From Camellia lanceoleosa (lineage: Eukaryota > Streptophyta > Magnoliopsida > Ericales > Theaceae): a DNA stretch of 64,000 nt. How positions within the stretch are numbered: the stretch's first letter is position 1; every line of letters starts with the position of its first letter. The notes beneath the pieces are model-generated. The model saw only the letters and a program-made list of their open reading frames with translations. It did no database searches and was not told where the DNA came from. The stretch is from assembly GCA_025200525.1 (NCBI GenBank), contig CM045770.1, forward strand, positions 135,932,200-135,996,199, given 5' to 3'. Both the position numbers and the translations under genes were made by a program. Of this stretch, positions 26,831-58,431 are shown one piece after another.

Positions 26831-27842
26831 TATTTTTAATATTTTGTAACTAAACCATAATGACTAGCAGCTTATAAAAGTAATGTGCACAATGTGGTTT
26901 GGTATGGTTTGAGAATAAAATTAAAACTAAATAGTGGATGATGAATTTGGGCATTTTAACATATTAGTTTATTGCAAAATAATCTTAGACAATTGTTAAA
27001 TATTTACATTATATATAAAATTAATTTATATAACATTTATATATATAACACTAATTGATTTTACATAATATTTTTAATATATGTAACATTAATTTGCATC
27101 AAATTGTACATCTCATATTTCTCTCAATCCTTGTCCAGCCTTTTTATGCCCCTCTCTCCTCCTTACTTATAACAGATTTGTCCCACATGTAACTATTAGT
27201 CTTACCCTCAATTTTTAAATCAAACAACGGACTAATTGATATATGAGTTATTTAGATGGAGACCCCAAATTATTGAGAATATCAATTTGATCTCATAAAC
27301 TATAAAAGCATACAAATAGATCTCTAAACTATTAAGAAGTATCACTTTGATCCCTTCCGTTACTATATCGTCAGTTAAACCAAACTTTGGACATTTATTA
27401 TACGAAAATACCCTTCGACACTAATTTATTATATATATATTTTATATTATGAGTTTTTTTTGTTCTATTATTATTTTCTTGAATATTATTTCTAGAAAAT
27501 GTAACCCCCTCAAAATAAGACATAATTCATTCATTCGTAAGATCCATAAAACATAGAAGAAGTATTATATTCTATACATTAGAGTGCTCTTTACAAAAGA
27601 TGTTACATGCTTGACAACAAAAATAGATACCCATCGGCTTACAACCTCCCAAGAAAATACTTGATGACACTAAAGAAGAGTTCTAACTCTGTTACATATA
27701 AAGCCCTTGGCTTGAATTACACATAACATAAAAAGGTAACAACAAAAAGAAGCCTTCAGCCACTAAACCTCCCAAGCTATGTCCTTGAAGGCGACATATC
27801 ACCTGTACCTGAAAATGGTGTCCCAAGTAGGGTGAGCCACAG

Positions 27843-30800
27843 TGTAATAAGCCCGCGAGGGGACCTCACCGGGGTTACAGTTCGGACTCAATTTTGTCAT
27901 AGTTCTTAATCTTGAATCGAAGAGTCCAAATCTAGCAAATCGTTTTGAGAAAAACAGATTTTGAAAGAAGTGCCAAACATGGACTGCTTCGCCAGATATA
28001 GAGTCGCCACCTAAATATTTTTTATGGGGGAATTTAGGAAACCCTGACTCGGTACCAAAGGCCACGTGTCCGTCATCACCAAAGTTGCCTCAGCTCGGGA
28101 GCTTGGGTACGATTGGGGAAGGTCAGCTATGAGCACCCCCTCTCCCCCGATCCGAAGATTGGCCTCTACTAACCGTGATATCCTATTTTGAAAACGTTAT
28201 GTGTTCTTATCTCAGTTATTAGCCTAGAATTACTATGTTATGCGCACAACAAACAAGTATAGACTAAGTCGCCTAAATTGGAACAAAACATTTCATGTTT
28301 GTTTATTTTGAAAATGGTTTGATGGTGCTACCCGCAAGTAGGCTAAGACATGAATTTTGCCACCCTCAAGTGGGCTTAAAACTTGCATTCAATGCATTGC
28401 TCCAATTTAAGTAACCTAACCTCCACCCACAGGCATTCAGGCAGTTATGTCACATAAGCATCTAGCCTCATGGTAAGTATGCTGTCATGGTAGCATTCAC
28501 ACACATGTGGCATGCTAAAACATAAAAACTTACCTAGTACTCCAAGCCAAAATAGAAACTAGTTAGTAATCATATGCATGCAAGACAAAATAGTAAACTA
28601 GTTAGAAATTAAGGGGTTGTTTTGGGTGTCCTAAATAAGTGTACTTTTTGTCTTTTTGAACTAAAAAGTTGAGGGAAAAAATATGGATATTTGGATTAAC
28701 TTTTTAACTTTTTATGAAAAAATGTGTATTAAAAAATTGTATAAATTAGTATGCAGGGAAAAATTAGGATTGGGAGTTGTATAGCCGTACTTTTTGACTT
28801 TTGGTGAATAGTGATAGCTTTTTAACTTTTTGAGTAACTTTTTAACTTTTTGACTTTTTTTCAACTTGCCAAACTTGAACTAAAACTTAAAACCTCACAC
28901 TTACGTGAGTGTTCTCTAAAGACCACTTGTCTTCAACACAACTACTTCTAACCGAATAATTTCAACAACTCAGTTGTAAGTTTTCTTATATACCCTAATA
29001 TTTAAAGGAGTTCAATTTTTCTACAGAATCTGTGTTTGACAGCAGCAAAGGGAAAAACTTGGCATGGCAATGCATTTCAAGCAAATTTGTGTACCAACAC
29101 ATCCCTTATCATGTTTATGACTCAAAGGGACATGAACCTTGGTTCTCGAACTACCAATCGCGCATTTCAATGCGTGATGGCCCAAGAGACCAAGCATGCA
29201 ACTTCAATTTCAAATGAAATGCAAACCAAATAAACACACAAGAAGGCCCAACCTCTATCATACTCACTTTAAGAGGTCTAGCATGCATGCTCACGCAATG
29301 CAATCCTAAGCATGTTGACTAGTATGCAACATGAACATGCGAACAAGCATATAAGGCATGCAAGGCATGAGACAGTGCAACCAACAAGTATGCAAGGCAT
29401 AATGTGGGTATTCAAGCATGCAAGCCAACATGTGACTTCATTCAATCATGCAATTTCAATCATGCAACAACTCACCAATATGTTACAACATACAAGGAGT
29501 GCATGCAACAAACAAAGGGATGGACTTAAACTAATTTAGGCAACTCTCAAACAAGCCTAAAACAGTGGCCAAGATGCTATGGAAGTGAGATCCAACACAC
29601 AAACATGTATGAAAACATGGACCAACATTCAAGCATAAAGAGCAACTTCTAAGCACACTTAAGAAGATGCAAACACGGACAATTAGCATGCAATGGAAAG
29701 CTCTGAAATCATGCTAAAATAGTGCCAAACCAAATGAACAACACAAGCATGGCATGCAATTAAGGTTCAAATATTTGAGGCAAGCCAAGAAGACTTAAAC
29801 CATGACTAAGTCAACCAAGCCTCACAAGGCCAAGAGGACTTAAAATAGGTTCAAGGCAGACCTAGACAATACCAAAGGAACACCTAGATGGCATCTAAGT
29901 GACTCAAATCTAAAAGTATGCATAATTGCCCAAAACATGGAGCATACAACACAAGCTTCCAAAGCATCCAAGAGGCATTAAAGGCAAGCATACAAGCATG
30001 TTAAATGGACTGAAATGGCATGTTAAGTGGTTCCAAACCACTAAAATAATGCAAGCAATGCATGCTACACGCTCACACACTTAAGGCTACAAGCTAGCAA
30101 TGCAAAGGAGCTATGCAATACATGTCATGATTGACCAAAACAGCCAAGGACAGGCCTTAAACATGGCAAAATAAACATAAAGGCTTCACAAAGCTAGGCC
30201 TAAATATGCTTGGGTAAGGACTCAAAGCATAAGACATGTTAAGGCTAAAACAAGGCATTACAAGGCATGTATGCTAAGCAAGCATGGTGTACCAAAACCA
30301 ACATACAACAATGCTATATTATGACATGATAAGCATGAAAAACAGCTAAGACATGGTCAACATACACTTAAACATGGTGCTCTCTCAAGAGGCAAAAAAT
30401 GGCCCTTTTCAAGGACAACAAGGAGAGGGGGTGGCCCTCTCCTTCCTAGGACCTCAAGGCACCATCCTCACCTTTGAAATCCCTCAAGATTTCAGTGGTG
30501 AAGAGGCCCAAACACTATGGTCCCGGAGCTCAACCAAAAATGGCACAAAATGGAGCCTTTCAAGGCTTAAGAGGGGTCAAACAACCCCAAATGCCAAAGC
30601 ACCCTTAACCAACTATTTAAAGGGATAAAAAATAGAACTTTTTTATGTTATACACTAAGCCCAAAAACAGTTTTAAGGTAGGCAAAAATACAATGCAAAA
30701 ATGGGGAATAAAGGGACAAGTTTCTTACCCTTGAAGACCCTCTTCACCAATGGAGCTCCAACAGCTTCTTTAGGTTGAAATCAGTCTAAAACCTTCAAAA

Positions 30801-31468
30801 ATAACCCTCAAGGGCCTCAGTTCCAAGGGATGGTGTGATGGTGGGTGTTTGTGAGCAATATTAAGCCTAAATACACACAAGACAAAGAGAGGGGGGAAAT
30901 AGAGATAGGATACACACAATATTCAAACCCTAGAACTCAAACCCTAAAAAAAGCTATCTAAAAATGTCTAACCCCTCAACAAAAGAGAAGAGATCCTCTT
31001 TTATAGACAATTGTGTCTTGTAAAGCTTCCAAAGGAAGCTAACAAGAGGGAAATCCCTCCATATACGTGTATGGAGGGGGTAACAGTGTATGCCAGCTGC
31101 CAAAAAAATATCTACAAAAGTAGATGCACAGTAGTCGGCCGGCCAAAAATGCAATTGACCAAAGAAAGATAGCCGGCCGGCCATCTATAGTGCCGGCCGG
31201 CCAAACATTTGGCTGGTGGTTGCAAAACACAGCCGGTGGCTTCAAGCCATGGCCGGTGGAGTGTGGGGATGGCCCACAAGCCATTCCTTGCCCCTTCAAG
31301 GCAAAACACGTGCAAAACCAGACACGAAGCAGTCGAGTCGAGAGATCCTGAGGCAAGGCGTGTAGCCAAGACCTCGGGAACTCAAGACGAACACAGACAT
31401 GGATGATTACCGAGTGTTCAAGCGGTGACGTCCAAGTCTTGAGGACGGTCAAAAATGGGATGTCTATA
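27843..31468 (-). repeat. 3' LTR of Tat element 1
   Basis: Plus-strand sequence runs TGTAATAAGCCCGC to GGGATGTCTATA; the terminal CA has decayed to TA. It is 3,626 bp and aligns with 43,043-46,913 nearly base for base in 27,843-28,576 and 29,020-31,468. Between these, about 445 bp of AT-rich sequence (starting near GGGGTTGTTTTGGGTG, ending near CTTGCCAAAC, perhaps a MITE with flanking filler) replaces about 680 bp of the other LTR. GGCCGGCC motifs cluster near 31,136-31,202. Open frames here are not genes. Confidence 0.88.
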
Positions 31469-31484
31469 GTTGCCCCTCTTTGAC
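31469..31484 (-). other. Polypurine tract of Tat element 1
   Basis: In the element's sense GTCAAAGAGGGGCAAC directly precedes the 3' LTR. A purine-rich tract at this position primes plus-strand DNA synthesis. It agrees with the orientation given by the PBS. Confidence 0.75.
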
Positions 31485-32069
31485 AGAACTCGAAAGTCAT
31501 AACAATGACGGGAGTGAATGTCAAAGCCCAGAGACGACCCATTTTTGACAAGGCCAAAGACTTAGACAAAGCATGCAAGACAAACAAGATATGCGCCCGA
31601 AGGCAGGGGCAAAATGCAAGACAATGCACAAAGCCGAACATAACTTATGATCATGCAAAGAAAGCAGTAACGAGGCATAACATGCGACAGTTTTAAGCTA
31701 GCATACACCAAACTACACTACAATGCAGAAAGGATGTAAGAGAATTATGCAATTCTCAATACATCTCACGCGGAGGATACAATAACTGTGCGGTTCGTCT
31801 GGTTGCACCAGCCTCAAATGAACCGTACATACAATATCGTGCCTGAAAGGAAAGCAAACTTAACAGGTACCATATTGTTAGCAACATGCATAACAATGCA
31901 AAATAAATGCAAAATGATATGTAATATATACAAAACTATGTATAATAATGATGCAAGTGAAAATGTAATGTAATTGAAATGACGTAAACGAAATGCAATG
32001 CAATTGAATCATGATCCAATCATGAGCAGTTCGAAACCACACAAATGTCAAATAGATTGATGGAAGTAA

Positions 32070-32790
32070 CAAGTCCGTCTACCATAGAAAAGGTGCCGTA
32101 ACCCTCAAAGTGCATATACATGTAGAACTATGAGTGATGTAGACAGACACAAGAACAAGTATTGGGTGGAATGACATAAGTGGGGAAACAACCCGCTAAC
32201 GAAAGAACAATGATCCTAATGCTAGATGCAAAAATTACACTACAATGCAATATATACAGTGGATATGGCATGTAACCAAACCGAATCTTGCCTAGGAAGG
32301 GCATGTACACATACAAGCCATGTCTGACACAGAAAAGGTGCCGCTACCCTCAAACCAAGTTCATCAAGGAATAGGCACGTACACATGCAGAACTGTGCTT
32401 CGAAGTAAAAAGTACGAGTACATACCAAACCAAGCTCAACAAGGGAAGGTGCGAGCCAAAGATGGAAGGGGTGATGCAGTGAATGCATGCAAGCTACAAT
32501 ATGATATTTACAATATGCAGTGGAATGAAATAGATACGATGGATAAGGCATGCAAGCCAAACCAAATCTTGCCTAGGAAAGGCATGTACACAAACTAACC
32601 GTGTCTAACACAGAAAAGGTGCCGCCACCCTCAAACTAAGTTCATCAAGGAATAGGCGCGTACATATGCAGAACTGTGCTTTAACGTGAAAAGTATGAGC
32701 ACATACCAAACCAAGCTCAACAAGGAAAGGTGCAAGCCAAAGATGGAGGTGATGATGCAATGAATGCATGCAAGCTACAATGCGACATGC
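32070..32790. repeat. Tandem duplication of about 281 bp in the 3' region of element 1
   Basis: Copies start at TGTCTGACACAGAAAAGGTG (32,321) and TGTCTAACACAGAAAAGGTG (32,602). A more diverged copy containing AGAAAAGGTGCCG lies near 32,085. Each includes GTTCATCAAGGAATAGGC and GCAGAACTGTGCTT. Non-coding. Confidence 0.75.
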
Positions 32791-32870
32791 ACTGGAATGG
32801 ACATTTACGACGGAAATGCATGACATATGCACTATATTACGATGATATGCATGACAATGCATGTGTTTTT

Positions 32871-33180
32871 TTTTTGTTTTGTTTTGTTTTTTGAAATGCA
32901 TGACATATGCAGTATTTACAATGATGCATGACATATGCATGTGTGGTGCTTTTTTTTGCGTTTTTGTTTTTTGAAATGCATGACATATGTAGTATTTACA
33001 ATGATGCATGACATATGCATGTGTGGTGCTTTTTTTGTGTTTTTGTTTTTTGAAATGCATGACATATGCAGTATTTACAATGATGCATGACATATGCATT
33101 ATTTACAATGATGATGCATGACATATGCATGATATTTACGATGATGCATGACATATGCAATATTTGCTTTGAAATGCATG
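32871..33180. repeat. 80-bp tandem repeats rich in ATGCATGACATATGCA
   Basis: TTGAAATGCATGACATATGC recurs at 32,891, 32,971 and 33,050 (periods 80 and 79), each followed by TATTTACAATGATGCATGAC and a T-rich spacer; a shorter form continues to 33,180. Tandem repeats upstream of the 3' LTR are typical of Tat-lineage elements. Confidence 0.8.
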
Positions 33181-33219
33181 GTAACGCGAATGAACTGTGC
33201 ACATCAATGCACCGAAGGT

Positions 33220-33730
33220 CTTGCACCTTCCAAGGATTTAAGGTCTCCTAGATCGTATGCTGGGGAAATGCATAACAATGCAAATGAACTTAGAACGCGT
33301 GACAACGCGTGAGTTTAAAATTCATGACAATGCATGCGAGTTTGAAATGCATGACAATGCATGAATTTTTTAATGCGCGACGACGCGCGGCTTGAAATGC
33401 ATGACAATGCACGTGAGCAACATTCACATCAATGCAAGTTGTACGTGTTACGATGCGTGTCTGCATGCATAACGATTTAGGGGATGATGAGCGTTACAAC
33501 ATATGCAGACATGCAAGCACCAAAGGTTTTGCACCTTTCGAGGATTTAAGGTCTCCTAGACCGTACGCTGGGGAAATGCATAATAATGCAAGTGAACTTA
33601 GAACGCGTGACAACGCGTGACTTTGAAATGCATAACAACGCATGTGAGTTTGAAATGCATGACAATGCAACCGAGCGGTCTTAAGGTCTCGCCAGACCAA
33701 GCGGGTTTAAGGTCTCGCTAGACCGTGAAG
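33220..33730. repeat. Duplicated block with GCGTGACAACGCGTGA motifs
   Basis: About 100 bp at 33,225-33,325 (CACCTTCCAAGGATTTAAGG through AACGCGTGACAACGCGTGA) recurs at 33,529-33,625 with few changes. Around both, short ATGCATGACAATGCATG words alternate with ACGCGT-containing ones. Non-coding. Confidence 0.65.
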
Positions 33731-33739
33731 TACACAGGA

Positions 33740-33985
33740 CGGTGTGATGCACAAAATAGCGCGATTGAATGCATGCAAAATGCAATGAGATGCGCAAAAT
33801 AGCGCGATTGAATGTATGCAAAATGCAATGAGATGTGCAAAATAGCGCGATGCGTTAGACAACGCGATTGAATGCATGCAACATGCAATGAGATGCGCAA
33901 AACAATGCGATTGAATGCATGCAAAATGCAATAAGATGCAAAATAGCGCGATACGTTGGACAACGTGAGCGCACAAGATAGTGCG
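33740..33985. repeat. 43-bp tandem repeats, GCGCGATTGAATGCATGCAA core
   Basis: Five or so copies of a unit containing AAAATAGCGCGATTGAATG, with a spacing of about 43 bp, some enlarged by a GCGTTAGACAAC insert. It lies next to the promoter side of the PMD gene. Long open frames across it are by-products of the repeat. Confidence 0.75.
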
Positions 33986-34199
33986 ATGACATGATACATG
34001 CACAAGGGGCAACTTTCGGGTTTTGTAAGAGACAAAAGGATACGAGAAGGATACACCTTGCACAAATTCAAATGCCGCGCACAGAAGACATGGTCCGAGG
34101 TCAAAACGGAGGCCGGTTGAGCTTCGGAGATGCCATTTCTTGTACTATCTTGAGCAATGAAGACCCCAAACCACTTATCTGACCTAAACAAGGTTGTAG

Positions 34200-34718
34200 G
34201 AGCCTCACCGGTCACATGGGGAGGTCACCGGCCATCCACCGGCCACCAAAAAACATCACCGGCCAAATATTTGGCCGGCCGGCCAAAAATGTAGCCGACC
34301 GGCTAAAAATGCCTTATTCAGGGTAGTTTTGACTTTTCGCCTTGTGTCTTTTAAAATAGGGTTTCAAACCCTATTTTTCTCATTCCCCTTAGCCGAAATC
34401 TCACACTCTCTCTCTCTAGAGCTTTTTTCTTCTCCCATTCTCCCGTTTTCTCACGTTTTAGCCTCCGTTCCATCGTCCGATTCACGATCTCCTTCGCGTT
34501 TCGAACATTTAAAACCGATCGAAACTTCATTTCAGTGTTTCCTTTTTGATTTTTGCTTCTTGGGGTTTGTTTCCCCCAAGTTTTCCTTGATTTTCCCATA
34601 TTTTCCACATTTCGGCTTTTCCGGCCATTTTCCACCCTCTCGAGGGTTGACTTTTCGTTTGACCCTTCACATTCTAGCTTTATTTTCCTTTTCCGACCAT
34701 TTTCTCATCATCTTTGAT
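34200..34718 (+). promoter_or_regulatory. Probable promoter and 5' UTR of the PMD gene
   Basis: A cluster of CACCGGCC/GGCCGGCC motifs (34,208-34,310) precedes a TATA-like TTTTAAAATAGGG (about 34,350), a CTCTCTCTCT leader (34,405-34,416) and a C/T-rich stretch up to the ATG at 34,719. This is the layout of a plant promoter and leader. The same GGCCGGCC words occur in the element's LTRs, so the gene may use LTR-like regulatory sequence. Confidence 0.45.
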
Positions 34719-37700
34719 ATGGCAGATGACATTCCACAGGGCGGGACTCCCCTGGATCACGAGATGGATCCCAGGGTCGAGCTTCTCCCTCTGAGTGTCC
34801 GTCCATAAGACCCGGCGACCTACCCGCCGGCAATCCATGTCTTGCCTCCCGATGGACTTTGCCAGTTTCGGAGCTTTGATAGGGCGATGCCTCCAGAGCT
34901 TCTTTTGCGTGAGCCTGCATCTCACCTGTCCTTTGTTGCTTCCGAGGTAACATTTCCTCATCTGTTTTTATTTTCTGTGACATAGAACACTTAACTGCCA
35001 TAGTTGATTATGTTCTTTAACTGCTTAGCTCAGATACACTGATGCACTGTACACTGTAGTTGATCGCAACCACATTTGCAACTGATATCTGTTTGAGACC
35101 GACACGTGCACACATACTGCGCTGGCTCTGAATCACTCAAATACACCGACACAGTACACACTACACACACTGTAGTTTATTGCAATCTCACCGGTACCTG
35201 ATACCTGTTTGAATCTGAAAAACTTGCACACATGCTATATTTGTACTGAACCATGCAAACACACTGACACATTACACGTTGTAGTTCATTGTAAGCACAC
35301 CGGCACCCGGCATCTGTTTGAATCTGAAAATATGCACACATGCTATATCTGTAATGAACCACTCAAACATGCTGACACATCACACGTTGCAGTTCACTGT
35401 AAGCACACCGGCACCCGGCATCTGTTTGAATCTGAAAACATGCACACATGCTATATCTGTCTCAATTCTGAATGCCTTTCAAAACTAGTATATTCAGCAT
35501 TGCTTCGCAATTGTTTGCCTGAAAACAGGGGGATTCCCACATCGTCCGAGGGTATGGGAACATCGCCGCTCATGATTGGTACGCAGAGCTACCCGATGCG
35601 GTCCGCCACATTGTGGACCAGGCCGGTTTTGGTGCATTCTGCAGAGGGCTGTCCAGACTCACCACGAGTAGGCCTCTCCTCGCTGCTCTAGCGGAGAGGT
35701 GGTGGGACACCACCAACTCGTTCCATCTTTCTGCAATGGGAGACATGACGATGACTCCGTATGATTTCTCGATGCTCACAGGCATCAGGGTAGGGGGTGA
35801 TCCGATCCCCTTTGACACTGATATGGACGAGTGGACGGCTGCTCAGATATATCTGCTTGGCGAGGTGCCACCTCTCGCCCGTCCAGGCTTCGTTCGTTAT
35901 TCCTGGTTCGAGGTCCAGTTCAGGGTTCAGCCAGCCCTAGTGGAGGAGGCTCCGATGACTCAGGAGGCTGTGGAGCGATATGCGCGCGGTTTTCTGATGT
36001 TTCTACTGGGGACCACTATTTTCGCCGACCGGGCGAATACCGTGCCCTTCTGCTTGCTTGGCGCCTTAGTGGATGTCACTCAGATCCTGTACTATGACTG
36101 GGGTGGCGCCGCTCTGGCTACGCTCTACGGATACATGAGCTCGGCTTCCTGTGGCAGCGGACAGTTGCTTGGGGGCTATTGGCGTGCTTGGGAGGTACAT
36201 TTCTTTTTCTGCTTTATTTTCCTGCTTTCTACTATCTGTACTCTATACTGTATTCTGTACACTGCATACACTGTAGTCTGCTTTTCACTAACTGTATACG
36301 GTACACACGGCACACATACACTCTGCTTTTCACACCAACATCGCCGCTTACATGCTCTGCATCTGCAATACACGCACTTTTTTATTTACGCTTGATAGAT
36401 TCGCTTCTCTTTATCTGATCAACATATTGGTATTTACTCTGCAGTTGTGGGTCTACGCCTACTTTTCCAGACTAGCCCCGGTGCCAGACGTGGAGACCTC
36501 TCTCGTCGTCCCGTTCTCGCGCCGCTTTGACGGGAGATGCGTGCAGAGACCCCGGGAGACATTTAGCTTCTTCCACCGCTACTTTGACACCATCACCCCC
36601 GCGGAGGTATGTTTATCTTTAGGGTTTATTTAAGCTTTGCTTTTCACTGTATATTTTTAATAACAGTAGATAACAAACCGTATTTCATTTTCAAATCACC
36701 TGGCAGCCTTGGGCTCCGTTGCCAGCGACGATTCGGGACCGATTTGCCGGTGCTGAGGAGACCTCGCGTTTCCAGATTTTGCTGGAGGGCCCGGTCTGTC
36801 GGGCTTGGTACCTAGGTGAGCGTTTCCTACGCCAGACCTTAGGGTTACCAGAGCAGATAGTCTCGGTTTATCCTCCTGAGGATATGAGGGAGACCGAGAG
36901 ACTCACTGCCGAGCAGATGGCCGATTATATGATTGGCTGGGAGGCGACCTGCTTCAGAGGCATCGACGACTACAGAGAGTACGTGCAGACGTACATCATG
37001 CGGCCTTTGAGCGGTGGCCGTCGGGTTGAGAGAGAGAGACCCGTGGCACCAGCAGCTAGGGCGGGAGTGGGGGCTGGAGCAGGAGCGTCACGGAGAGCTT
37101 GGGTGCATGGCGGGGTGAAGCTTCAGAGGCGGGGGGTTGGCTGACCGCCCACCTCCGACACATGAGGAGGAGGTGGGGCGACCTACCAGATCCCCTTTGC
37201 CCCTCCTCCGGCTGATCACGAGTTGGTCGGTGTCCCCGACTTGCCTCCGGTATGTATTATTGCATTTTGCATCTTGCATTATCATTTCATTTCATTTCTT
37301 TGATATTCCGCAGAATACTGATGCATCTAATGCTTTTGCAGGCTTCCTCCGAGTACACTCGGAAGTCTTTGGAGTTGAATGCCTCCATGATGGGGATGTT
37401 GCAGCGGACTTTCGACCTCCTGGCCCTCTACAGTATTTCGGTATGTTCTTCAACTACGGTCTCAAACCATACATAAACTGCTTCACATAATCCGATGCAC
37501 AACACAACTTCTGATAAACTGATCTCACAAAGATTCATACATCAGACTTATACATCGTGATTCTCATTACGCGATAAATCGCTTCACAAAGATTCGCGAC
37601 ATCAGACTCATACATTGCATTCTCGCGACTGATAAACCGCTCACAAGATTCACACATCAGACTCATACATTGCATTCTGCACTGATAAACTGCTCACAGT

Positions 37701-38017
37701 ATAATGATGCATTTGCCTTTTGTACTTTTCAGCCTCCCTTCTAGATTTCCACTGTAAGAGGTGTTCCAGCCAGGCCTTCTGTTCCTGCCGGAGGAGATGG
37801 AGAGGGTAGAGTATTCCCCCGCACCAAGGCGGGGCGCACTCACGTCGTAAGTAGCTCTCGGGCGCTAGTTCCGGATGATGATGACGAGGAGTCGTCTGAG
37901 GCGGAGGCAGAGTCGTCGAAGGAGGAGACCGGGGATGGCTCGGACTCGGGCTCAGATGACAGTGCTGATGATGCTCCTGGACCTTCGTCCAGGAAGAGGA
38001 CTAGGACAGACCGATAG
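34719..38017 (+). pseudogene. Plant mobile domain (PMD, aminotransferase-like) gene, six exons, four stop codons
   Basis: Exons 34,719-34,946, 35,529-36,194, 36,445-36,606, 36,707-37,249, 37,342-37,440 and 37,733-38,017 all have GT-AG borders, and every exon is a multiple of three, so all introns are phase 0. The product would be 660 residues. Exon 2 holds the PMD core (MTMTPYDFSMLTGIRVGGD, then RGFLMFLLGTTIFAD and YYDWGGAALATLYGYMS), and exon 3 LWVYAYFSRLAPVPD. This is the family of Arabidopsis MAIN/MAIL1, nuclear proteins linked to transposon silencing, and is also found inside plant transposons. The C-terminus is acidic (DDDDEESSEAEAE) and ends in basic KRTRTDR. Stops lie in frame at 34,806 (TAA), 37,142 and 37,163 (TGA), and 37,742 (TAG), each one C-to-T from Gln or Arg; there are no frameshifts. 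It lies antisense inside Tat element 1. Confidence 0.88.
35110..35465 (+). repeat. 108-bp tandem repeats in intron 1 of the PMD gene
   Basis: GCACACATGCTATAT recurs at 35,226, 35,334 and 35,442 (period 108, that is 36 codons), with CACCGGCACCCGGCATCTGT in each full unit and a more diverged copy upstream. One frame stays open across the units and repeats a Cys/His-bearing peptide (HTCYICNEP, CKHTGTRHLFESEN). Treated as intronic because the gene splices cleanly around it. Confidence 0.7.
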
Positions 38018-38159
38018 CCCTGGAGCCACTTTGACATTTGATGCAGATTTTTGCTGTTTTTCTTCTTTTCTTTGTACTTTTTCCTTTTTGTTGGTAGCTA
38101 GGATAGTTCGTACTTTCGCAGGCAGATTTTGTTTCCAAAACTTATGTACTTGAAAAGAT

Positions 38160-41100
38160 GATGGAATGAAACAAACTTTTTGTCTGAAAAAGTGTTTACT
38201 TCTTTATATTTCATACTTTGCATTGCATTGCATCATGTTATACCTCAATGTAAATGAAATTGATTTGTTGACTGAAAATTGAACACTTGTACTGTAATAA
38301 TCAGATAACTAACCAACCAACTGTAAAACAACCCAAGCAAACCACTGCTTAACCTGAACACATAGCCCTTACTCTACTGAGGACGAATCTGCACACAGCC
38401 CATAACACAGCATTCGGTCCATTCTGCACACGGCAAATCCTGAACAAACGGCCCAATCTGACAAGACGGAATATAAAGGCGGAATCGGCTGAGACTGAAA
38501 CACACTCAGATACCCTAAATTTTCCTTTTCTCCTTTTGGTTTGCACAAATGTAGAGAATGACACAGCACTCTGAGCATAAGCGATTTTTGAAATTGGAAA
38601 AGAGTTCTTCAACTTGGGTATTGAGCCTACAACTGAACACAGCGGAGAAAGACTCAAACGAAAGGCACACGACCTAATCACAACGAGACATGCTCGGAAA
38701 AGACCCAAAATGAAAGTTGGGCTAGACAGGACAACCGACACGATACATGGACGTGTTTACAAAATGAAAGACCTCTCAGTGCACAAGGAGCCAGTTTCTC
38801 TGGGTATTATTTCCACCCTTTCTTATTTGTGATTCTCACATCACTCGGCCCTCAGGCTCGGTTTTTCTCTCAAAACCTTTTTTTCTTACTTTTCTCTCAA
38901 CTTAAACCTCTCTATTCTTTATTCTCTCATTTTTCATCCCTCCCCAGGGTGATTGATGGATGAATAGGAAGTTGCGGGTTCACGGCCAACACTATTGGCT
39001 CGCAGCTATTTCTTCCAGTGACGTCTAGCCGGTGTTCCAGACAGGGAATGGTGTATCTTGATCTGTCCCAATTTGTGCTTCGCACTTGGCTTCATACCTC
39101 GTTATTTGGAGTATGTTGAGAGCTTTCACCCTTCTTGACGATTGATGCCTTCTCCGAATAGAGTGCCGTTCTGGCAAGTATGTTGATGACAGGGAAAAGA
39201 CAGAACACCTGACTCGACTGTGCCCCTAGTTCATCACTTTGACCATTTTTGTTTTGGTTTTATACTAAAACAGTTTTGACCAAAAATGAGAGTTAGATTA
39301 ACATACTTATTCAATTTTTGATTTGAAATCATGCAAGTCGGGCCATAAGCACTGAAAATTTTCCCTTTTGGGTCCTAGAAATGGTCTAGTTTTGAAAAAT
39401 GAAATGGTTTTCAAGAAAATAGTCAACCTCAGTAAAAATTTTCAAAAACCATTCTTGCAAACGACCCATGCTAAGCGAGCATGGAACCTACCCTCGAGAT
39501 GCGCAACCTCGGATCGGAGGCAATGGAAAATTGCCCCTTGCTTGAAAGGGGTGCATGGCAACGGGAAGTTGCGCCTGGTTTGAACGGTGACTCGCAGCAA
39601 CTCATGGCAACAGAAAGTTGCCCCTTGTTTGGATGATGCCGTAGTATGCTGAAAACCAGTCCTTATCGGTGATGATTGCAAACGAACTCTTGGACACGGA
39701 GAAAACGGAGATGGTCTGGATCAATATATGGACACAGTCACTGTGAGAGCATTGGTGGCTGGACTTCAAGAGGAAGTTGACTGCGTGGTTCCGGTTGTCA
39801 CAACCAAACTATCGGATTCAGAGGAGGCAAAGGTAATCAAAACCATTACATAGACGAGACGGGGGTTGGACTTCAGGATGAAGTTGCCTACGTATCCCGA
39901 ACATGGGAATCAAGCCTTACGTAGTTTCGGCTATGGTACACTCGGGTATTTTAACCTTCACTTTTTAGGCTCTAACTTTTGCCAAGGTGCCCGATGAGGG
40001 TTTTCGACCTTGCGAGCTTCTATTTTTTTTTTTTTTTCTCTTTCTCTTCGTTGCATATATTTTTTGCTTTTGTATTTTTTTGTATTTTTTGTATGTTTCT
40101 TCTCTTTTTTTCTTTTTGCTTTTCTCTTTTTTTCTTTTGTATATTTTTTCTTGCTTTAACTTTTGCCTGGGTCGCCCTTCCGGGTTTTCATCCCAACGAG
40201 CATCTCAGAGGGTAAAAGTGTAACAAGTCCATGCCAAATGGTTTTGAAATTGAAGCCCCTCTGTATTCAGGAGAATGGCTGTTGTATTCGGCTATTCGAG
40301 CATGTCCAACATTTGGTTGCCCCTAGTTCGAGGGGTGCTTCTGATATGGTTTTGCTGGCTTTCGTTGACGACGTCTGACCTCTTGATCTGACTTTGGTGC
40401 CTCTTGCTCGAGGGCTGCTTCAAATCTAGCCACGTGGGCCTTACGTGGCGGTTGACCATTGAACAGTCCGGATTGTGGTCAAGGCTTGAAAACAAATGGA
40501 TTGAATCTTGAGGCTGAGAGCGATCCTAGGCTGCACAATCTTAAGAGCGATTCCACACAGGTCTTCACAGGACCTCGCAAAACATTTTGTTTTTAAAAGT
40601 TTTTAAGAAAGCGACAAATCACTCGCGCTGAAGATAGTGTAGAATCAATCTGGGTCAAGTCAGGGTCCTTCTCAGTACTCATGCTAACAACCACGATTTC
40701 ATTCATTAAAAGGCTTAGCATGCCTCTCTTTCTCTCAAATTAATCAAAGTTTTGCAAAACCCGAGGAATGCCTTCCTGTTTGTTTTTATCACCACAGTGT
40801 TCAAAAAGGCTCTTGGAAAAAACTTAGGTCATTATGATGATTTTCAGGGCACAAGAGCAGGTGGAGGGTACTGCCGTTCGATCCAGATCCTCTGGCCTAA
40901 CGAGCTCAAAAAAGCGATAAGCAAGGAAACATGATAACCGCAGCTGTTTCATTCAGATTTCCTGGTTGTAACTGGCTCCACCGCAGAGACAGACTCAAAA
41001 AGAAATCAAAAGGGGTAATTACAAAACAAAACGGTGTTTGAGGCAACAACCCTGGAATCACTTGGTATTTTATACAAGGGGACTGACTTGCTACAATAAG

Positions 41101-41284
41101 ACAGACCCTAAAGCAAAAAGAACTAACTCACAACAATGAGATAAACTCAAAACAAAACAAAAGACTAACTCGACACCCAAGCCAGAATTTACAAAACTAG
41201 CAATCGCAGATGCTCAAAAATGCATGCCAGACGCCACATCCAAAAATACACCAAGCGCCGCCCGCAGGGGGATTCATTTCCTGA
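38160..41284 (-). other. Non-coding spacer of element 1, shared with element 2
   Basis: No gene seen. In the element's sense it parallels 60,719-63,420 of element 2: GGAGCCAGTTA and GAATGAAACAGC; CTTAGGTCATTATGA against CCTAAGTTTTTC-type text; an A/G-rich stretch of about 130 bp (plus-strand pyrimidines 40,021-40,160 here, 61,858-61,985 there); GCAACTT hairpins; and GTTGTAGGCTCAATACCC. It occupies the place where pol would be expected. Confidence 0.7.
39519..39622 (-). other. Series of three small hairpins with a compensatory change
   Basis: Plus-strand hairpins GGCAATGGAAAATTGCC (39,519-39,535), GGCAACGGGAAGTTGCG (39,557-39,573) and GGCAACAGAAAGTTGCC (39,606-39,622). One stem pair changes from C-G to T-A with both sides altered. 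Element 2 has GGCAACTTTCCGTTGCC at 62,270-62,286 and a weaker copy 49 bp on. This suggests a structured RNA element. Confidence 0.55.
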
Positions 41285-42285
41285 TTACATACTCGCAGTA
41301 TCAGTATCCTCAAAGTCCAATAGCTGGGTAGTAACGGACTTGACTGAGGTAGGCGGGAGGATAACCTCGTTGTCGATCAAGTCTTGCACCTCATGACGGA
41401 GGCGGAAACAATTATCGGTAGCATGACCTGTTTGCTGGTGGTATGCGCAGTACAAGGCAGCATCATGTATGGGAAGAAGATTCTTCGGGAGAGGCCGAGG
41501 CTCCAAGGGTTTAAGGTGCCCTCTTTCGGCCAGGATCTGGAGTGCCCTGGACAGAGGCATGTAAAGAGCGTGAAAGACCCTGCGCCCTCGGGGCAGGTAC
41601 TTTGAAGGCTGTGAATTCTTGCTAGACGCACTAGCGAAAGGGTCGGCAGGCACTGCCTTGACTTTCTGATCTTTCCCATGTGCAGGGTTGGGAGCGGGAG
41701 GAACTATTCTGGCATGACGGGGCCTGTCGGTTTTCGACCGGCTCGGCGCCTTCGCTTGAGCGGGAAAACATCATCCACAGTTTTGATCATTACCGCGAAC
41801 ACCTGTTGTTTATTCATTCCCCCGGCTTTCAAAGCCTCGACTGCCCACAGCAGTTGTTCAATGGGATCGGCATCTGCCTTCACTTTGTCTTTACCTCTGG
41901 CCTTCGCCTGATCGAGGGTTTGGGTTGATGTTGGCATGTCATTGTTATAGTTGGAGGCCATCTCCGGTTGGCTAAGCTCGATCACAATCCGTCCCAGCAA
42001 TGGGGGCTCCCGTGGTACAAAACTTCTGACATATGGTGCGGTTGGTGGCGAAGCTGACATTCCGTAGGCAAGATCCGCCACGGACCTCTGGAGATCACCT
42101 ATCATCCCCATCAACTCGAATGTGGTGGGCTCGCGAGCCTGATACAATTGGGGGGTCCAGATCGGGTGTGCAGCAGGCGACCTGGGTGGATGCGGCACAT
42201 CAACATTGGTCTTACTTTGCAGAGTGATTTCTTGATCTAATGCGGCTGTCATAACCACAATCTCTTCCGAATTCTGCGTCATCAT
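41285..42285 (-). pseudogene. gag remnant of Tat element 1, core apparently deleted
   Basis: The N-terminal part (42,285-41,704) is open for 193 codons, with REPTTFELMGMIGDLQRSVAD and a stretch ending in VDDVFPLK minus any core domain. The C-terminal part (about 41,745-41,285, in another frame) carries a gag tail and a variant zinc knuckle, CAYHQQTGHATDNC (C-X2-H-X4-H-X4-C), typical of Tat-lineage Gag, which packages element RNA. The Retrotrans_gag core present in element 2 (about 59,760-60,240) is not seen. The join between the two parts is frame-shifted. A functional Gag is unlikely. Confidence 0.75.
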
Positions 42286-43019
42286 AGGTCCACTATTCTG
42301 AGCGGTGACCGACGGATCAGATATCTGTCTTGCCTCAGCAAAGAGAGAACACTGACTATTCTAGATCAACTCTCTGAACTGAAAAGAAACACAAGCAGCA
42401 TTTCAGCCCAAACGGAACGAACACAGGTATAGCCGAACGACTGTATTCTATTGCTGATCAGTGTTTCCTAAAATCACTGCCTCAAAATACTGAATCGGAT
42501 ACCCACGGATATAACTGATTCTCCTAAACTGACACTGGTGCCCTCGGGCCCGATACTCAAACTTGCAAACTGATATGCACGTTCCCCTGTAGAGGTACAC
42601 TCTAAAAGCACATAGCATATAAAAGAGAGAAAAAACACCCCTATGTTGGGGTAGGGTTTCCCTGTCCTATTTTGTTAGGAGCTAGGGTTTCACTACGCAC
42701 GCAGCGGTTTCAAACAACCTAACATCGGGTAAGCAACCTGTCCTAGCTTGGAATGGTCACTATGGATTCCGAATATGCACTAGGTCGAATGGTCGAAAAG
42801 GGTGCCCCGGTAAAACCGGGGTTTGTGTTCCCATACTGTAAGAGCCCACAACCGGTCAGCCTTATGGTCACGTCTTGACAAGACAAGCCTCCGGCAAACC
42901 GTTCAGGAATGGCAGATGGCAAACACGGTGTCCTAGGCGCACCAATGCACATGCAATGCAAAGAAACACATAAGTGAAATCAAAACAAGATATCACGAGT
43001 TTGAGTCAAGCTCTCTAAA
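42286..43019 (-). other. Leader between PBS and gag of element 1
   Basis: In the element's sense it starts with GATTTAGAGAGCTTGACTC and includes TTTGCATTGCATGTGCATTG and GTGCGCCTAGGACACCGTGT, both paralleled in element 2 after 58,431. No coding seen. Probably holds packaging signals by position. Confidence 0.6.
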
Positions 43020-43037
43020 TCCCCAGCAGAGTCGCCA
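43020..43037 (-). other. Primer binding site of Tat element 1
   Basis: The plus strand reads TCCCCAGCAGAGTCGCCA, the 3' end of a tRNA including CCA. In the element's sense it starts TGGCGACTCTGC, five bases after the LTR end. Ogre/Tat elements are known to use a tRNA-Arg-type primer of this form. This fixes the minus orientation. Confidence 0.8.
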
Positions 43038-43042
43038 GAAAC

Positions 43043-46000
43043 TGTAACAAGCCCGCAAGGGGACCTCACCAGGGTTACAGTTCGGACTCAATTTTGTCAA
43101 GATTCTTAATCTTGAACCGAAGAGTCCAAATCTGGCAAATCGTTTTGAGAAAAACAGATTTTGAAAGAAGTGCCAAACATGGACTGCTTTGCTAGATACA
43201 GAGTCGCCACCTAAATATTTTTTACGGGGGAATTTAGGAAACCCTGACTCGGTGCCAAAGGCCATGTGTCCGTCATCACCAAAGTTGCCTCGGCTCGGGA
43301 GCTTGGGTACGATTGGGGAAGGTCAGCTATGAGCACCCCCTCTCGCCCGATCCAAAGATCGGCCACTACTAACCGTGATATCCTATTTTGAAAACGTTAT
43401 GTGTTCTTATCTCGGTTATTAGCCTAGAATTACTATGTTATGCACACAGCAAACAAGTATAGACTAAGTCGCCTAAATTTGAACAAAACATTTCATGTTT
43501 GTTTATTTTGAAAATGGTTTGATGGTGCTACCCGCAAGTAGGCTAAGACATGAATTTTGCCACCCTCAAGTGGGCTTAAAACTTGCATTCAATGCATTGC
43601 TCCAATTTAAGTAACCTAACCTCCACCCACAGGCATTCAGGCAGTTATGTCACATAAGCATCTAGCCTCATGGTAAGCATGCTGTCATGGCAACATTCAC
43701 ACACATGTGGCATGCTAAAGCGTAAAAACTTACCTAGTACTCCAAGCCAAAATAGAAACTAGTTAGTAATCATATGCATGATCCTAGTTCATGTTTAAAC
43801 TGGCTAATGCAACACATGCAAAATGTCATTAGAGTAGGCTCGGCTAATCTAAGGATGACATGTGAAAATGCACAGATAGCACGTATTCAAGTTAGATTTG
43901 AAGCACTTATGCAGTTAGCATGATGCGCCGAGCCCGGTGCATGCAATACTGATGAATGATGAACGCATGTATGGCATAAGGTATGCTAAAGTGAACATGT
44001 CCTAATACTAACCATCAAAAGCAGGTAAGTAAAAGGGAGAAAGAAGTGGGGGTTGGAAGACATGCACACACACACCCACACTTATTACAAATTTGCCCTC
44101 GCTCGGAGGGACCAAAAGAATAATACAATTTAACTAACCGACTAGCTAATTAAATATTACAAACAATTAAATTAATTAAGCAAATTAATTAATCTAAGAA
44201 AGTAGTAAACAGCAGCCTCGGGGAGAGGGCTCAATGCATGCGCGCTCGGTTCCGCCCGGAAATCCACTGCCATGCTCAAGATGCCTCTGTTTTCCCTACT
44301 CTGCTCTTCTGATGACTGCCAAAGTCTCAGGGTTTGCTCTCTGGATGCTAGGGAACACCACCGGCTGAAGGGATTGATCACCGACCATGAATTTGATCCA
44401 TCGGCCAACAATGGTGGCCGATCGGCACTGAAGATGGCCGGCCGGCCAAATCTTTCTGCAGAATCTGTGTTTGACAGCAGCAGAGGGCAAAACTTGGCAT
44501 GGCAATGCATTTCAAGCAAATATGTGCACCAACACATCCCTTATCATGTTTATGACTCAAAGGGACATGAACCTTGGTTCTCGAACCACCAATCGCGCAT
44601 TTCAATGCGTGATGGCCCAAGAGACCAAGCATGCAACTTCAATTTCAAATGAAATGCAAACCAAATAAACACACAAGAAGGCCCAACCTCTATCATACTC
44701 ACTTCAAGAGGTCTAGCATGCATGCTCACGCAATGCAATCCTAAGCATGTTGACTAGTATGCAACATGAAAATGCGAACAAGCATATAAGGCATGCAAGG
44801 CATGAGACAGTGCAACCAACAAGTATGCAAGGCATAATGTGGGTATTCAAGCATGCAAGCCAACATGTGACTTCATTCAATCATGCAATTTCAATCATGC
44901 AACAACTCACCAATATGTTACAACATACAAGGAGTGCATGCAACAAACAAAGGGATGGACTTAAACTAATTTAGGCAACTCTCAAACAAGCCTAAAACAG
45001 TGGCCAAGATGCTATGGAAGTGAGATCCAACACACAAACATGCATGAAAACATGGACCAACATTCAAGTGTAAAGAGCAACTTCTAAGCACACTTAAGAA
45101 GATGCAAACACGGACAATTAGCATGCAATGAAAAGCTCTGAAATCATGCTAAAATGGTGCCAAACCAAATGAACAAGACAAGCATGGCATGCAATTAAGG
45201 TTCAAATATTTGAGGCAAGCAAAGAAGACTTAAACCATGACTAAGTCAACCAAGCCTCACAAGGCCAAGAGGACTTAAAATAGGTTCAAGGCAGACCTAG
45301 ACAATACCAAAGGAACACCTAGATGGCATCTAAGTGACTCAAATCTAAAAGTATGCATAATTGCCCAAAACATAGAGCATACAACACAAGCTTCCAAAGC
45401 ATCCAAGAGGCATTAAAGGCAAGCATACAAGCATGTTAAATGGACTGAAATGGCATGTTAAGTGGTTCCAAACCACTGAAATGATGCAAGCAATGCATGC
45501 TACACGCTCACACACTTAAGGCTACAAGCTAGCAATGCAAAGAAGCTATGCAATACATGTCATGATTGACCAAAACAACCAAGGACAGGCCTTAAACATG
45601 GCAAAATAAACATAAAGGTTTCACAAAGCTAGGCCTAAATATGCTTGGGTAAGAACTCAAAGCATAAGACATGTTAAGGCTAAAACAAGGCATTACAAGG
45701 CATGTATGCTAAGCAAGCATGGTGTACCAAAACCAACATACAACAATGCTATATTATGACATAATAAGCATGAAAAACAGCTAAGACATGGTCAACATAC
45801 ACTTAAACATGGTGCTCCCTCAAGAGGCAAAAAATGGCCCTTTTCAAGGACAACAAGGAGAGGGGGTGGCCCTCTCCTTCCTAGGACCTCAAGGTACCAT
45901 CCTCACCTCTGAAATCTCTCAAGATTTCAGTGGTGAAGAGGCCCAAACACTATGGTTCCAGAGCTCAACCAAAAATGGCACAAAATGGAGCCTTTCAAGG

Positions 46001-46913
46001 CTTAACAGGGGTCAAACAACCCCAAATGCCAAAGTACCCTCAACCAACTATTTAGAGGGCAAAAAAATAGAACTTTTTTATGTTATACACTAAGCCCAAA
46101 AACAGTTGTAAGGTAGGAAAAAATACAATGCAAAAATGGAGAATAAAGGGACAAGTTTCTTATCCTTGAAGACCCTCTTCACCAATGGAGCTCCAGTAGC
46201 TTCTTTAGGTTGAAATCAGTCTAAAACCTCCAAAAATAACCCTCAAGGGCCTCAGTTCCGAGGGATGGTGTGATGGTGGTTGTTTGTGAGCAATACTAAG
46301 CCTAAACACACACAAGACAAAGAGAGGGGGGAAATAGAGATAGGATACACACAATATTCAAACCCTAGAACTCAAACCCTAAAAAAAGCTGTCTAAAAAT
46401 GTCTAACCCCTCAACAAGAGAGAAGAGATTCTCTTTTATAGACAATTGTGTCTTGTAAAGCTTCCAAAGGAAGCTAACAAGAGGGAAATCGCTCCATACA
46501 CGTGTATGGAGGTGGTGATAGTGTATGCCAGCTGCCAAAAAAATATCTACAAAAGCAGATACACAGTAGTTGGCCAGCCAAAAATGCAATTGACCAAAGA
46601 AAGATAGCCGGCCGGCCATCTATAGTGCCGGCCAGCCAAACATTTGGCCGGTGGCTACAAAACACAGCCGGTGGCTTGAAGCCATGGCCAGTGGAGTGTG
46701 GGGATGGCCCACAAGCCATTCCCTGCCCCTCCAAGGCAAAACACAAGTGTTTGCTGCAAAACCAGACACGAAACAGTCGAGTCGAGAGATCCTGAGGCAA
46801 GGCGCGTAGCCAAGACCTCTGGGAACTCAAGACGAACACAGACATGGATGATCACCGAGTGTTCAAGCGTTGACGTCCAAGTCTTGAGGACGGTCAAAAA
46901 TGGGGTGTCTACA
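43043..46913 (-). repeat. 5' LTR of Tat element 1
   Basis: Plus-strand sequence runs TGTAACAAGCCCGC to GGGGTGTCTACA, 3,871 bp. In the element's sense it begins TGTAGACACCCC like the LTR at 53,805. It retains 43,780-44,460, which the other LTR has lost and which also matches element 2 at about 57,480-57,690, so this is the ancestral form. GGCCGGCC-like motifs are near 46,605-46,640 and 44,441. Confidence 0.88.
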
Positions 46914-48149
46914 CACAGTCCAGTAGAGATATGCTAAACAGTATATGAGAATTAACTAAAACATTATCATTTGATAAATGTTTAACACTTATAAGCCAAC
47001 TTACATTCTTTCCATAACCAATCAACATTTACAAACCGCTTCCTTTCATGTATCCAAATCAATCCACTTGCATTATTCAATATTATCCAAAAAATTTAAA
47101 ATGAGACTACAACTCATATATCAACACTTCAATAATCAACAACATTCAACACTTTCATTTTCTTGCCATTTTACGAAACTACGTCTGAAGGAACCAGCAC
47201 CCAAATATATAAAAGATTTCGAGACTTTCACCCTGGACACTCTAGCTAACTTAATTATCAATGGAATCCATCCCCCATCTCCTCCTAAACAAATGGAGTA
47301 CATCCCCTATCTCCTCCCACACAATATACATATACAATGACCCAACAATTTACATATTCAATGTGTTAATTCCACTGTTACATTCAATGACATAATCCCA
47401 TTGATTAGTTTCAATTTACCCAATCATCATGCAGTGTCTACAACAATCAAGACTATTTTCCACCGATAGCCCAAAATAGTTATTTCTAAACAGATAAATA
47501 AATCTATCAAACAAATAATTTATTACATTTTCCATTGATGAGTGATTTATCAATCCAACTACACCATTCAATCACAATTTCCCCAAATTTCAAGATTCTC
47601 AACCCAATTTCACATTCCCATAATTTACCAAATTAATTATTTGAATTCGATTAGGGCATTTTCTCCATTTTCTCAAACATTGATCCTCAGACCAAATTTC
47701 ATCCATTTTACCCAAATATCCCCATTTTGAAGACCTTACACACACAATGAAGTCCAAAGATAGAATACCCCCCTTTCAAACATTTCAAATCTCAAAACCC
47801 TAACTTTCCAAAATTTCCAAATCACACCATTTATACAAAATAACTAACATTTATGTTAAAGCTCATAAAAATGAGTAGATTGTCCCTACCATAAATGAAG
47901 AAGCTCAAATGAGAAGGAGAGAAAAACTCAAGATGCTCCAAACTTGAATTTCTTTGGATCAAAACAAAGCCCACGCAATGCTCTAACTTTCTTACAAAGG
48001 AACTAGGATAAAAAAAACCCCCTAGAACATGGAGTATTTGTAGAGAGAGTGTGCATGTAGACAAAGAAAGGCTATCGATTTTATGGTTTGGAGTGAAAAA
48101 GGGATGAAAAAGTGATGTAAAATCACGCTGCTGTGATCTGATATAAACA

Positions 48150-54650: not shown

Positions 54651-55479
54651 AAGATCACTGGGGGGTGAGAGGCCAGCAATTATCCCAGATAACCAGTTTC
54701 GCTCCTCCGGAGCCCGTTTTTCTCACTTCCGGGCCAATGTTGAACACCCTGGGGGTATTTTCTTCCAACCAAAGCTACATATCTGTGATCAGGGGACATG
54801 GGAGGACCCTAAAAATGTATGGTCGGCCAGCAATTCCTATTTTCATTTTTGAGCCTCTTCTTCAAATGCAATGTTGTGAATCCTGCTTCAATGTTGCCAA
54901 TTTCCGACCTTGGAACCTTGTTCTACACACATGGGAGGACACCAAAAAATGGTGGTCGGCCACTAATTCAACTTTTCATTTTTGAGGGGTGGCTGGCCAT
55001 GGGAGGTGGTGGCGGCCATGAGGGGTGGCGGCCGGCCACTTGCAAAGAAACCACTGTCGACCGCTTCTTGCTTTGCTCCAAATTTGTCCGGATATTTTGT
55101 CAAAATATCTCCCCATCCGGGATATTTTGGGAGGAAAGCTTGATGCTTCTCCTTCCCTTTACACCTTTTGTGCCTACTTACAGGGACCAACAGCTCCTTC
55201 CTCAAGATTACAAAAATTGTCTTCAAGAACACTTAAGCAAAAACCCTAATCTCCATAGCCAAAACCTTCAAAAAAGCTTCAAGTCTTGCTTGATTTCTTC
55301 ACCAACACCTAGCTTCACCATTCCAACTTCGATTCCAGCAGCAAGGAAGTATTCTTCAGAGGTCAAGAGGCTACAAATCCAAGCCAAGAAGCAAAGAAAG
55401 ACAAGTCTTCAAGGGTAAGTCTTCAAAACCAACTTTTAGGGCTTTTTCTTGATTCATTTCTACTCCAATTGGTTGAGAA

Positions 55480-56030
55480 TTGGGGCTCCGACCCCTACTG
55501 GTTTTAGGCTTATTTTGAGCCCCTCTACAACTTTGTAGAAGGGCTCAACTTCATTTGATGCTTCCATAATACACTTGTTTCAATACCTAGCTTATATGTC
55601 ATAATCTTGCATGCTATTTTTAGTCTATTTGCATTTGTTTTTGGGGCTCCGACCCATACTGGTTTTGTGCTTATATTGAGCCCCTCTGCAACATTGTAGA
55701 AGGGCTCAACCTCATTTGGCCATCCCATATACCACCTCCCTTTGAAATCCACTTTGGGCCCTAATTCTTGCATGTTTTGTATCCTTTTGTGCTTTTGGTT
55801 GTAGTCCTTGGTCAGAACTGAAAGGGGTCTTATTTTGACCCCCTCTACATGTTTCATGAATAAATTTTTGTTGTTTGGTGCATGCTTTGCATATCTCTTG
55901 TTATAACCTCTTTTGAGCTCCATTTTGCATGGAATTTATAGCATGTTTATATTCTGTTTTTGGGGCTTCCATCTTCTGTAAATGTGCTTATTTTTAGGCC
56001 CTCTTCAATGTTGTAGAAGCATGTTTGTTC
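55480..56030 (+). repeat. Repeats with a strong hairpin, GAGCCCCTCTACAA
   Basis: TTGGGGCTCCGACCC, then a GCTTAT.TTGAGCCCCTCT block, recurs at about 55,484 and 55,642, and more degenerately at about 55,958. The first two contain inverted arms, GAGCCCCTCTACAA and TTGTAGAAGGGCTC (55,517-55,546; again 55,678-55,707 with one G-T pair). Confidence 0.7.
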
Positions 56031-56374
56031 ATTTGGGGTTTGTATATACTACTTGCTTCAATACCCCTCTTTTGGCCCTTATTCTTGCATGCTAATGTTG
56101 ACCCATCTATGCTTACAATTTGGCCTTGTTTTGTACTGAAAAAATGCCATATTTGGGACTGCCTTGCTACTGTTTTTTTCTGTCGTGTATCATTTTTGCA
56201 TGTTTAGTATGGCTATAGGCCATTTCGGGTGTCTAATTTCACATTTCGGGATGATTGCATGCTTCGGTTGTTATTTCGTATCATTTCGGGCTGTTTTCCC
56301 TTCATTTAGTGGTTTGCATGCTTGCATATCATTTCCCATGTCATTTTATGCCTTAATGCATCGCTCGGGTTATG

Positions 56375-58413: not shown

Positions 58414-58431
58414 TGGCAACTCTGCTGGGGA
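58414..58431 (+). other. Primer binding site of Tat element 2
   Basis: TGGCAACTCTGCTGGGGA, five bases (GTTTC) after the LTR end. It differs by one base from element 1's PBS sense sequence and is complementary to a tRNA 3' end of the same type. Confidence 0.8.

Follow-up and report, generated by a model that had tools for sequence, protein, structure and literature searches.

The 64,000-nucleotide stretch of Camellia lanceoleosa DNA analysed here (contig CM045770.1, positions 135,932,200 to 135,996,199; hereafter the window) contains a long terminal repeat (LTR) retroelement of 19,071 bp at 27843–46913, whose sense strand is the minus strand. Antisense to the element, on the plus strand, lies a plant mobile domain (PMD) gene of six exons at 34719–38017, in which all introns are of phase 0. 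Our analysis indicates that this gene is almost certainly the usual cargo of a family of related elements and was under constraint in the past. A preliminary description, made from the DNA letters alone, had reported the 19-kb element with an intact 5-bp target-site duplication (TSD), a minus-strand primer binding site and polypurine tract, and the six-exon gene with its phase-0 introns. Each of these features is present: CACAG flanks the element on both sides, and exon 2 alone matches the Pfam family PF10536 at E=1e-21 (78 bits, against a curated cut-off of 34.9).

Read along the minus strand, the element runs from the 5′ LTR (3.9 kb) through the primer site and a gag remnant to the polypurine tract and the 3′ LTR (3.6 kb). 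All 19 bases of the primer site are complementary to tRNA-Arg(ACG) genes of the same genome (L073, L074) with CCA added; the tRNA 3′-end pattern occurs at 12 places in the genome, and ARAGORN calls tRNA-Arg(ACG) at three of six pattern loci, L073 and L074 being exact. The LTRs differ by Kimura two-parameter (K2P) distances of 0.030 and 0.035 in their two alignable parts, which we used instead of the whole-length value of 0.091, as this includes middle parts that cannot be aligned. At commonly used plant rates, such divergence corresponds to roughly one to three million years. The non-aligning middles, at 28580–29014 and 43780–44449, are 435 and 669 bases long and perhaps reflect later replacement or recombination; the remainder of the two LTRs is 96–97% identical.

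We detected no pol domain with Pfam in any of the 20 minus-strand open stretches of at least 55 amino acids within 38018–43042, where a heavily decayed pol could escape, nor in the four stretches scanned out of 16 on the minus strand within 31469–34718. A pol-sized insert is also absent from all four sister copies that are collinear with the element here, supporting the earlier claim that the element lacks pol. The minus-strand gag proposed at the same time survives as a remnant, while its domain does not: the open stretches give no Retrotrans_gag match in Pfam. The locus thus combines LTRs, TSD, primer binding site and polypurine tract with the absence of pol, in a region read through in four sister copies, as in a non-autonomous LTR retroelement.

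Table 1 Features of the PMD-carrying LTR retroelement in window coordinates.
Feature	Position	Strand	Remarks
Target-site duplication, left	27838–27842	none	CACAG
3′ LTR	27843–31468	minus	
Polypurine tract and last bases ahead of 3′ LTR	31469–31481	minus	read by eye
Several tandem repeat arrays	32244–33965	none	between 3′ LTR and PMD gene
PMD upstream flank	34029–34718	plus	presumed promoter region; in 29/29 other copies, median identity 85%
PMD exon 1	34719–34946	plus	in-frame stop at codon 30
PMD exon 2	35529–36194	plus	open; PF10536 match
PMD exon 3	36445–36606	plus	open
PMD exon 4	36695–37249	plus	acceptor 36693–36694 lost; two in-frame stops
PMD exon 5	37342–37440	plus	open
PMD exon 6	37733–38017	plus	acidic tail; one premature stop; final TAG 38015–38017
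Internal element sequence, PMD gene to gag remnant	38540–41602	minus	common to element B and sister copies
gag remnant	41288–42360	minus	two open stretches; no Retrotrans_gag match
Primer binding site	43019–43037	minus	19 bases; complement of tRNA-Arg(ACG) 3′ end with CCA
5′ LTR	43043–46913	minus	
Target-site duplication, right	46914–46918	none	CACAG

The closest protein relatives of the window PMD gene are from Camellia. Spliced models of relatives bear out the exon borders: among the 120 listed of 206 proteins found, 46, 79, 57, 33 and 22 run without gaps over junctions 1 to 5, respectively. In the window copy itself the gene is dead. The 660-codon product given in the preliminary description is interrupted by in-frame stops at residues 30, 502, 509 and 574, and the acceptor of intron 3 is lost. 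Residue 30 is F in 56 of 57 aligned relatives and residue 574 is Q in 16 of 29 rows, the alignment around stops 502 and 509 being loose. The GT-AG borders had been described as clean, but that of intron 3 is not. Among 71 relatives in the eight commonest listed classes, exon 4 starts with ITWQ in 42 and with a close variant in 12 (gaps in 17), and because the relatives start in this way, we place the intron-3 acceptor of the family at 36694. There, the window copy reads CAA, against AG in 25 of 26 readable sister copies as counted by eye; the AG chosen earlier for exon 4 lies 12 nt further downstream. Two introns contain tandem repeats, with a period of 108 in intron 1 (35164–35460) and of 55 in intron 5 (37511–37698). 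An AlphaFold model of the protein P0007, built with 43 sequences, has a mean predicted local distance difference test score (pLDDT) of 42.5, and a sequence search of the PDB returned three matches, the best with an E value of 0.058.

With exon 2 as the query, the genome yielded 6325 candidates, of which 40 were scored. The 39 scored matches outside the window span all or nearly all of the exon at 89–92% identity. Loci were cut for 30 of the scored matches, one being the window itself, leaving 29 other copies. Every one of them matches the upstream flank as well as exons 1 and 2 and introns 1 and 2, the intron matches being partial (median of 419 aligned bases out of 582 for intron 1 and 136 out of 250 for intron 2); exon 3 is matched in 28, intron 3 and exon 4 in 27 each, and intron 4, exon 5 and intron 5 in 26 each. 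By eye, the donor GT is present in 24/26, 29/29, 25/26, 24/26 and 17/18 copies for donors 1 to 5, and the acceptor AG in 27/29, 25/26, 25/26 and 24/26 copies for acceptors 1 to 4, acceptor 5 lying outside the cut loci.

The placement of the gene is likewise retained. In four out of four sister copies, collinearity with the window extends from about 37000 across the gag remnant at 81–87% identity; three of these copies also match the primer site and run on into the LTR, and the remaining one, L047, is missing ~0.85 kb near the primer site before an LTR match at 67%. Among 12 further copies, ten contain the gag-side stretch oriented as expected, including one (L064) in which it is shifted by ~3 kb, so that the gag-side flank stands in the same antisense order in 14 of the 16 copies tested. 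Matching TSDs were seen in two of the four sister copies (CCCCT and TATAC). In C. sinensis, the PMD of gene model P0028 runs into sequence like window 39333–39740, and gene model P0013 starts in sequence like window 34084–34320. Both the antisense cargo and its introns, first described in one copy, therefore recur in other copies. PMD sequences look very abundant genome-wide: beside the exon 2 candidates, searches with the Pfam family and with the protein P0043 returned 25,020 (117 scored) and 44,765 (59 scored) candidates, respectively.

Over the 30 copies, the median pairwise ratio of nonsynonymous to synonymous divergence (dN/dS) of exon 2 is 0.145 (dS 0.35, dN 0.05, range 0.06–0.7), in agreement with the purifying selection considered in the preliminary description. 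The corresponding ratio of nonsynonymous to synonymous differences (pN/pS) is 0.18 when the real frame is read; the two remaining plus frames give 1.48 and 1.30, and the three reverse ones 1.27, 0.27 and 1.60, the value of 0.27 belonging to the frame whose silent positions coincide with those of the real one. Using transversions only, the ratio is 0.164, and star-tree simulations under neutrality, run both with CpG weighting and without it, gave means of 0.57–0.85, far above the value observed. The other frames, the transversions and the CpG-weighted simulations together rule out an artefact of mutation bias. The six closest pairs of copies have ratios of 0.40–0.77, against 0.16 in the most distant quartile, implying constraint before insertion and decay after it. 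Since exon 2 bears this signature despite the stops that many copies now contain, the protein was retained during multiplication of the element. In five copies readable for both genes, the open stretches of the gag remnant gave 0.40 and 0.51, compared with 0.165 for PMD exon 2; gag thus shows some constraint too, and the PMD gene is the best-kept protein gene tested in the family. Exon 4 (dN/dS 0.373, with a stop in the window frame in 27 of 28 copies) was omitted from this argument because the window copy's own indels spoil the frame.

We compared the element gene with a host-type MAIN-LIKE 2 gene at C7:113.28 Mb (L015, L016), whose introns follow ...WEGQ, ...TLLQ and ...KPSD, all in phase 0. 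When 31 PMD proteins are aligned, the second and third introns of the two genes coincide exactly in column and phase; the first, which lies where the alignment is weak, is off by no more than two columns. A simple random model produced a comparable match in 0 of 200,000 trials. A second PMD subfamily, ~50% diverged and searched with P0043 as the query, shows genomic breaks near residues 323 and 377, its junctions 2 and 3. At the nucleotide level, host-type loci and the element have no match of over 150 bases. Two further loci of MAIN-LIKE 2 type, at C5:4.30 Mb and C5:5.71 Mb (L006, L007), have equal scores and lie 1.4 Mb apart on opposite strands, possibly reflecting a recent duplication.

A tree of PMD proteins places the element-type sequences on their own 100/100 branch; MAIL proteins from a wide range of eudicots lie elsewhere, as do three genic PMDs that lack introns. 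This agrees with the separate clade envisaged earlier; the label 'element-type' is assumed beyond the window's close kin. The tree, which has no Arabidopsis MAIN or MAIL1 row, does not put the element PMD inside the MAIL clade, and, given the separate branch, we reject recent copying from a host MAIN-LIKE gene as the source of the element PMD. The genic PMD loci L001, L002 and L003 have uninterrupted frames of 654, 633 and 716 amino acids with an intronless domain, and belong to a class far from both element and MAIL PMDs. Most simply, the matching intron positions therefore point to one intron-bearing ancestor, transferred as DNA and not via mRNA, and common descent of the element introns and those of host MAIN-LIKE 2 is very probable. 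The earlier proposal that an intron-bearing gene was copied as DNA is upheld in this outline by introns 2 and 3. As to direction, the host gene may have been captured, or it may derive from the element; the tree is midpoint-rooted and drew a program warning on long branches.

Together, these observations suggest, with a probability of about 0.6, that the window element is a decayed member of a multi-copy, pol-less, Tat-like LTR family whose usual cargo is an antisense, spliced PMD gene maintained as follows. An intron-bearing PMD gene would have passed between host and element as DNA, in either direction. In the genomic RNA of the element, a gene lying antisense offers no readable splice signals, and for this reason its introns pass through reverse transcription. 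A promoter of its own, upstream of 34719, would then give rise to spliced PMD mRNA, and the enzymes for movement would be supplied by another element. The PMD protein would act in the nucleus and favour its own element, the most likely route being interference with, or substitution for, the host MAIN/MAIL silencing pathway. This counter-silencing action is a tentative proposal. Equally speculative is a wider scheme, in which antisense orientation would be a general shelter for spliced genes, PMD genes would have been intron-bearing in LTR elements since the split from the host MAIN type, and a pol-less, trans-mobilised family, amplified with PMD as the protein gene under the tightest constraint, would contribute a PMD counter-silencing factor that prefers its own copies.

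Several observations weigh against this interpretation. In addition to the four stops in the window copy, exon 2 has a stop in the window frame in 19 of the 30 copies and a net frameshift in four. The sampled copies are those nearest the window and form a narrow sample of the candidates. A gag-side match is absent from two of the 12 further copies, and no TSD was found in two of the four sister copies. The promoter and the splicing of the PMD gene are predicted from DNA alone, and the action of its protein is likewise deduced from sequence. Lastly, a close structural relative contains no PMD. This relative, element B, lies on the opposite strand to the PMD element at 55000–64000 and on to window coordinate 70329; its 5′ LTR starts before 55000 and its end is ~6.3 kb past the window. 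It has a Retrotrans_gag domain at 59716–60558, no pol was seen in it, and a tandem array at 64250–65390 occupies the site that matches the PMD gene of the other element. Since element B does without a PMD, the gene cannot be essential throughout the wider group, and since tandem repeats stand in its place, it is common but not universal.

Element B could also be taken as a sign that this single copy received an insertion of a host PMD gene or of another element. The 29 of 29 other copies that contain both the gene and its upstream flank, and the 14 of 16 with the gag-side flank in the same order, already refute such a one-off event, which we regard as next to impossible. It is very improbable that the intron positions agree by chance or parallel gain, the element gene having acquired its introns alone. 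The loose agreement of intron 1, within two columns of a weakly aligned stretch, would fit this idea, but introns 2 and 3 are exact in both column and phase, none of the random trials came close, and the breaks of the second PMD subfamily fall at these junctions too. An unlikely, though more substantial, alternative is that the antisense unit works mainly as RNA, pairing with the genomic RNA so that phased small RNAs control the family, with the protein as a by-product. In tea plant, 175 PHAS loci are reported at PMD genes together with very limited PMD expression (PMC10673657), genes that may include members of the window family, and action through double-stranded RNA has been suggested for antisense extra genes (PMC7264820). 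A role as RNA leaves the amino-acid constraint unexplained, pN/pS being 0.18 in the real frame but 1.30 and 1.48 when the plus strand is read in its two alternative frames.

The strongest competitor is a reverse origin, in which an element PMD, with these introns already in place, was domesticated to give the host MAIN/MAIL genes; we consider it plausible, if somewhat short of an even chance. PMC5418596 counts domestication from Ty3/gypsy elements among its two scenarios, PMC8616336 favours it, and the deep separation of element-type PMDs from MAIL proteins is consistent with it. However, the introns must have come from somewhere, and since genes of retroelements mostly lack introns, the simpler donor is a host gene. 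The midpoint-rooted tree is unable to decide. The reading of the window element as a decayed, PMD-carrying member of its family allows for passage in either direction.

Retrotransposition normally erases introns. A spliced gene that keeps its introns in the copies of a retroelement, at positions matching those of a silencing-type host gene, illustrates a route by which genes of this kind can travel as DNA between host and element. Seen across its family, what began as one odd locus becomes a tested pattern. The origin of PMD genes, for which both directions of transfer are considered in PMC5418596, with domestication from Ty3/gypsy as one of the two scenarios, becomes testable by comparing introns across flowering plants. 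Moreover, constraint on a protein in a pol-less family prompts one to ask what advantage an element mobilised in trans draws from encoding a protein itself.

Among known systems, the window element most resembles Ogre of the Ty3/gypsy Tat clade, with which it has in common a tRNA-Arg primer, large size, long LTRs, a 5-bp TSD and a PMD extra gene. As pol is missing, and with it the basis for RT/RH/INT trees, for an archaeal RNase H between RH and INT and for two polyprotein ORFs parted by a spliced intron, Tat/Ogre membership can be tested only in part. The PMD domain pfam10536 is reported in 57% of Ogre elements (PMC6317226), a tRNA-Arg primer is given for Ogre, and PMD is noted in Gypsy elements across many species (PMC9289625). 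The window element differs in having neither pol nor a recognisable gag domain, and introns in Ogre PMD genes are not described in the accessible part of PMC6317226. By description, the gene may also be set beside the PMD-A1/A2 clades, which are encoded by Gypsy elements only and are likewise separate from host genes (PMC5418596); introns common with a host gene are seen here, the word 'intron' being absent from the accessible text of that paper. Retand elements usually have antisense extra genes beside the 3′ LTR, and also share adjacent tandem repeats and non-autonomous members with our element (PMC11963269), but their extra gene encodes another protein domain, and the available text again lacks the word 'intron'. 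Antisense extra genes as such have been reviewed, with an action through double-stranded RNA suggested (PMC7264820), and the tea plant PHAS loci at poorly expressed PMD genes come from Camellia sinensis var. assamica (PMC10673657).

On the host side, MAIN and MAIL1-3 (PMC7156037, PMC5418596) have the PMD domain, and introns 2 and 3 match the Camellia MAIN-LIKE 2 gene, whereas the element protein falls outside the MAIL clade and its function is presumed. The functional idea in the preliminary description is not new, because the use of PMD proteins by elements against silencing has already been proposed in PMC8616336, where domestication of host PMDs from an element is also favoured. A possible functional parallel is the anti-silencing factor VANC21 of VANDAL21, an element-borne protein that favours its own family, although VANDAL21 is a class II element (PMC8616336) and the PMD protein is known here as a predicted product. 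In the literature searched, which covers the accessible parts of these sources and leaves most subscription journals outside, we found no description of introns in element PMD genes or of introns common with host genes. PMD genes in Ogre-like elements are therefore a known kind and, as far as this literature extends, their spliced antisense form with introns matching those of a host gene is new.

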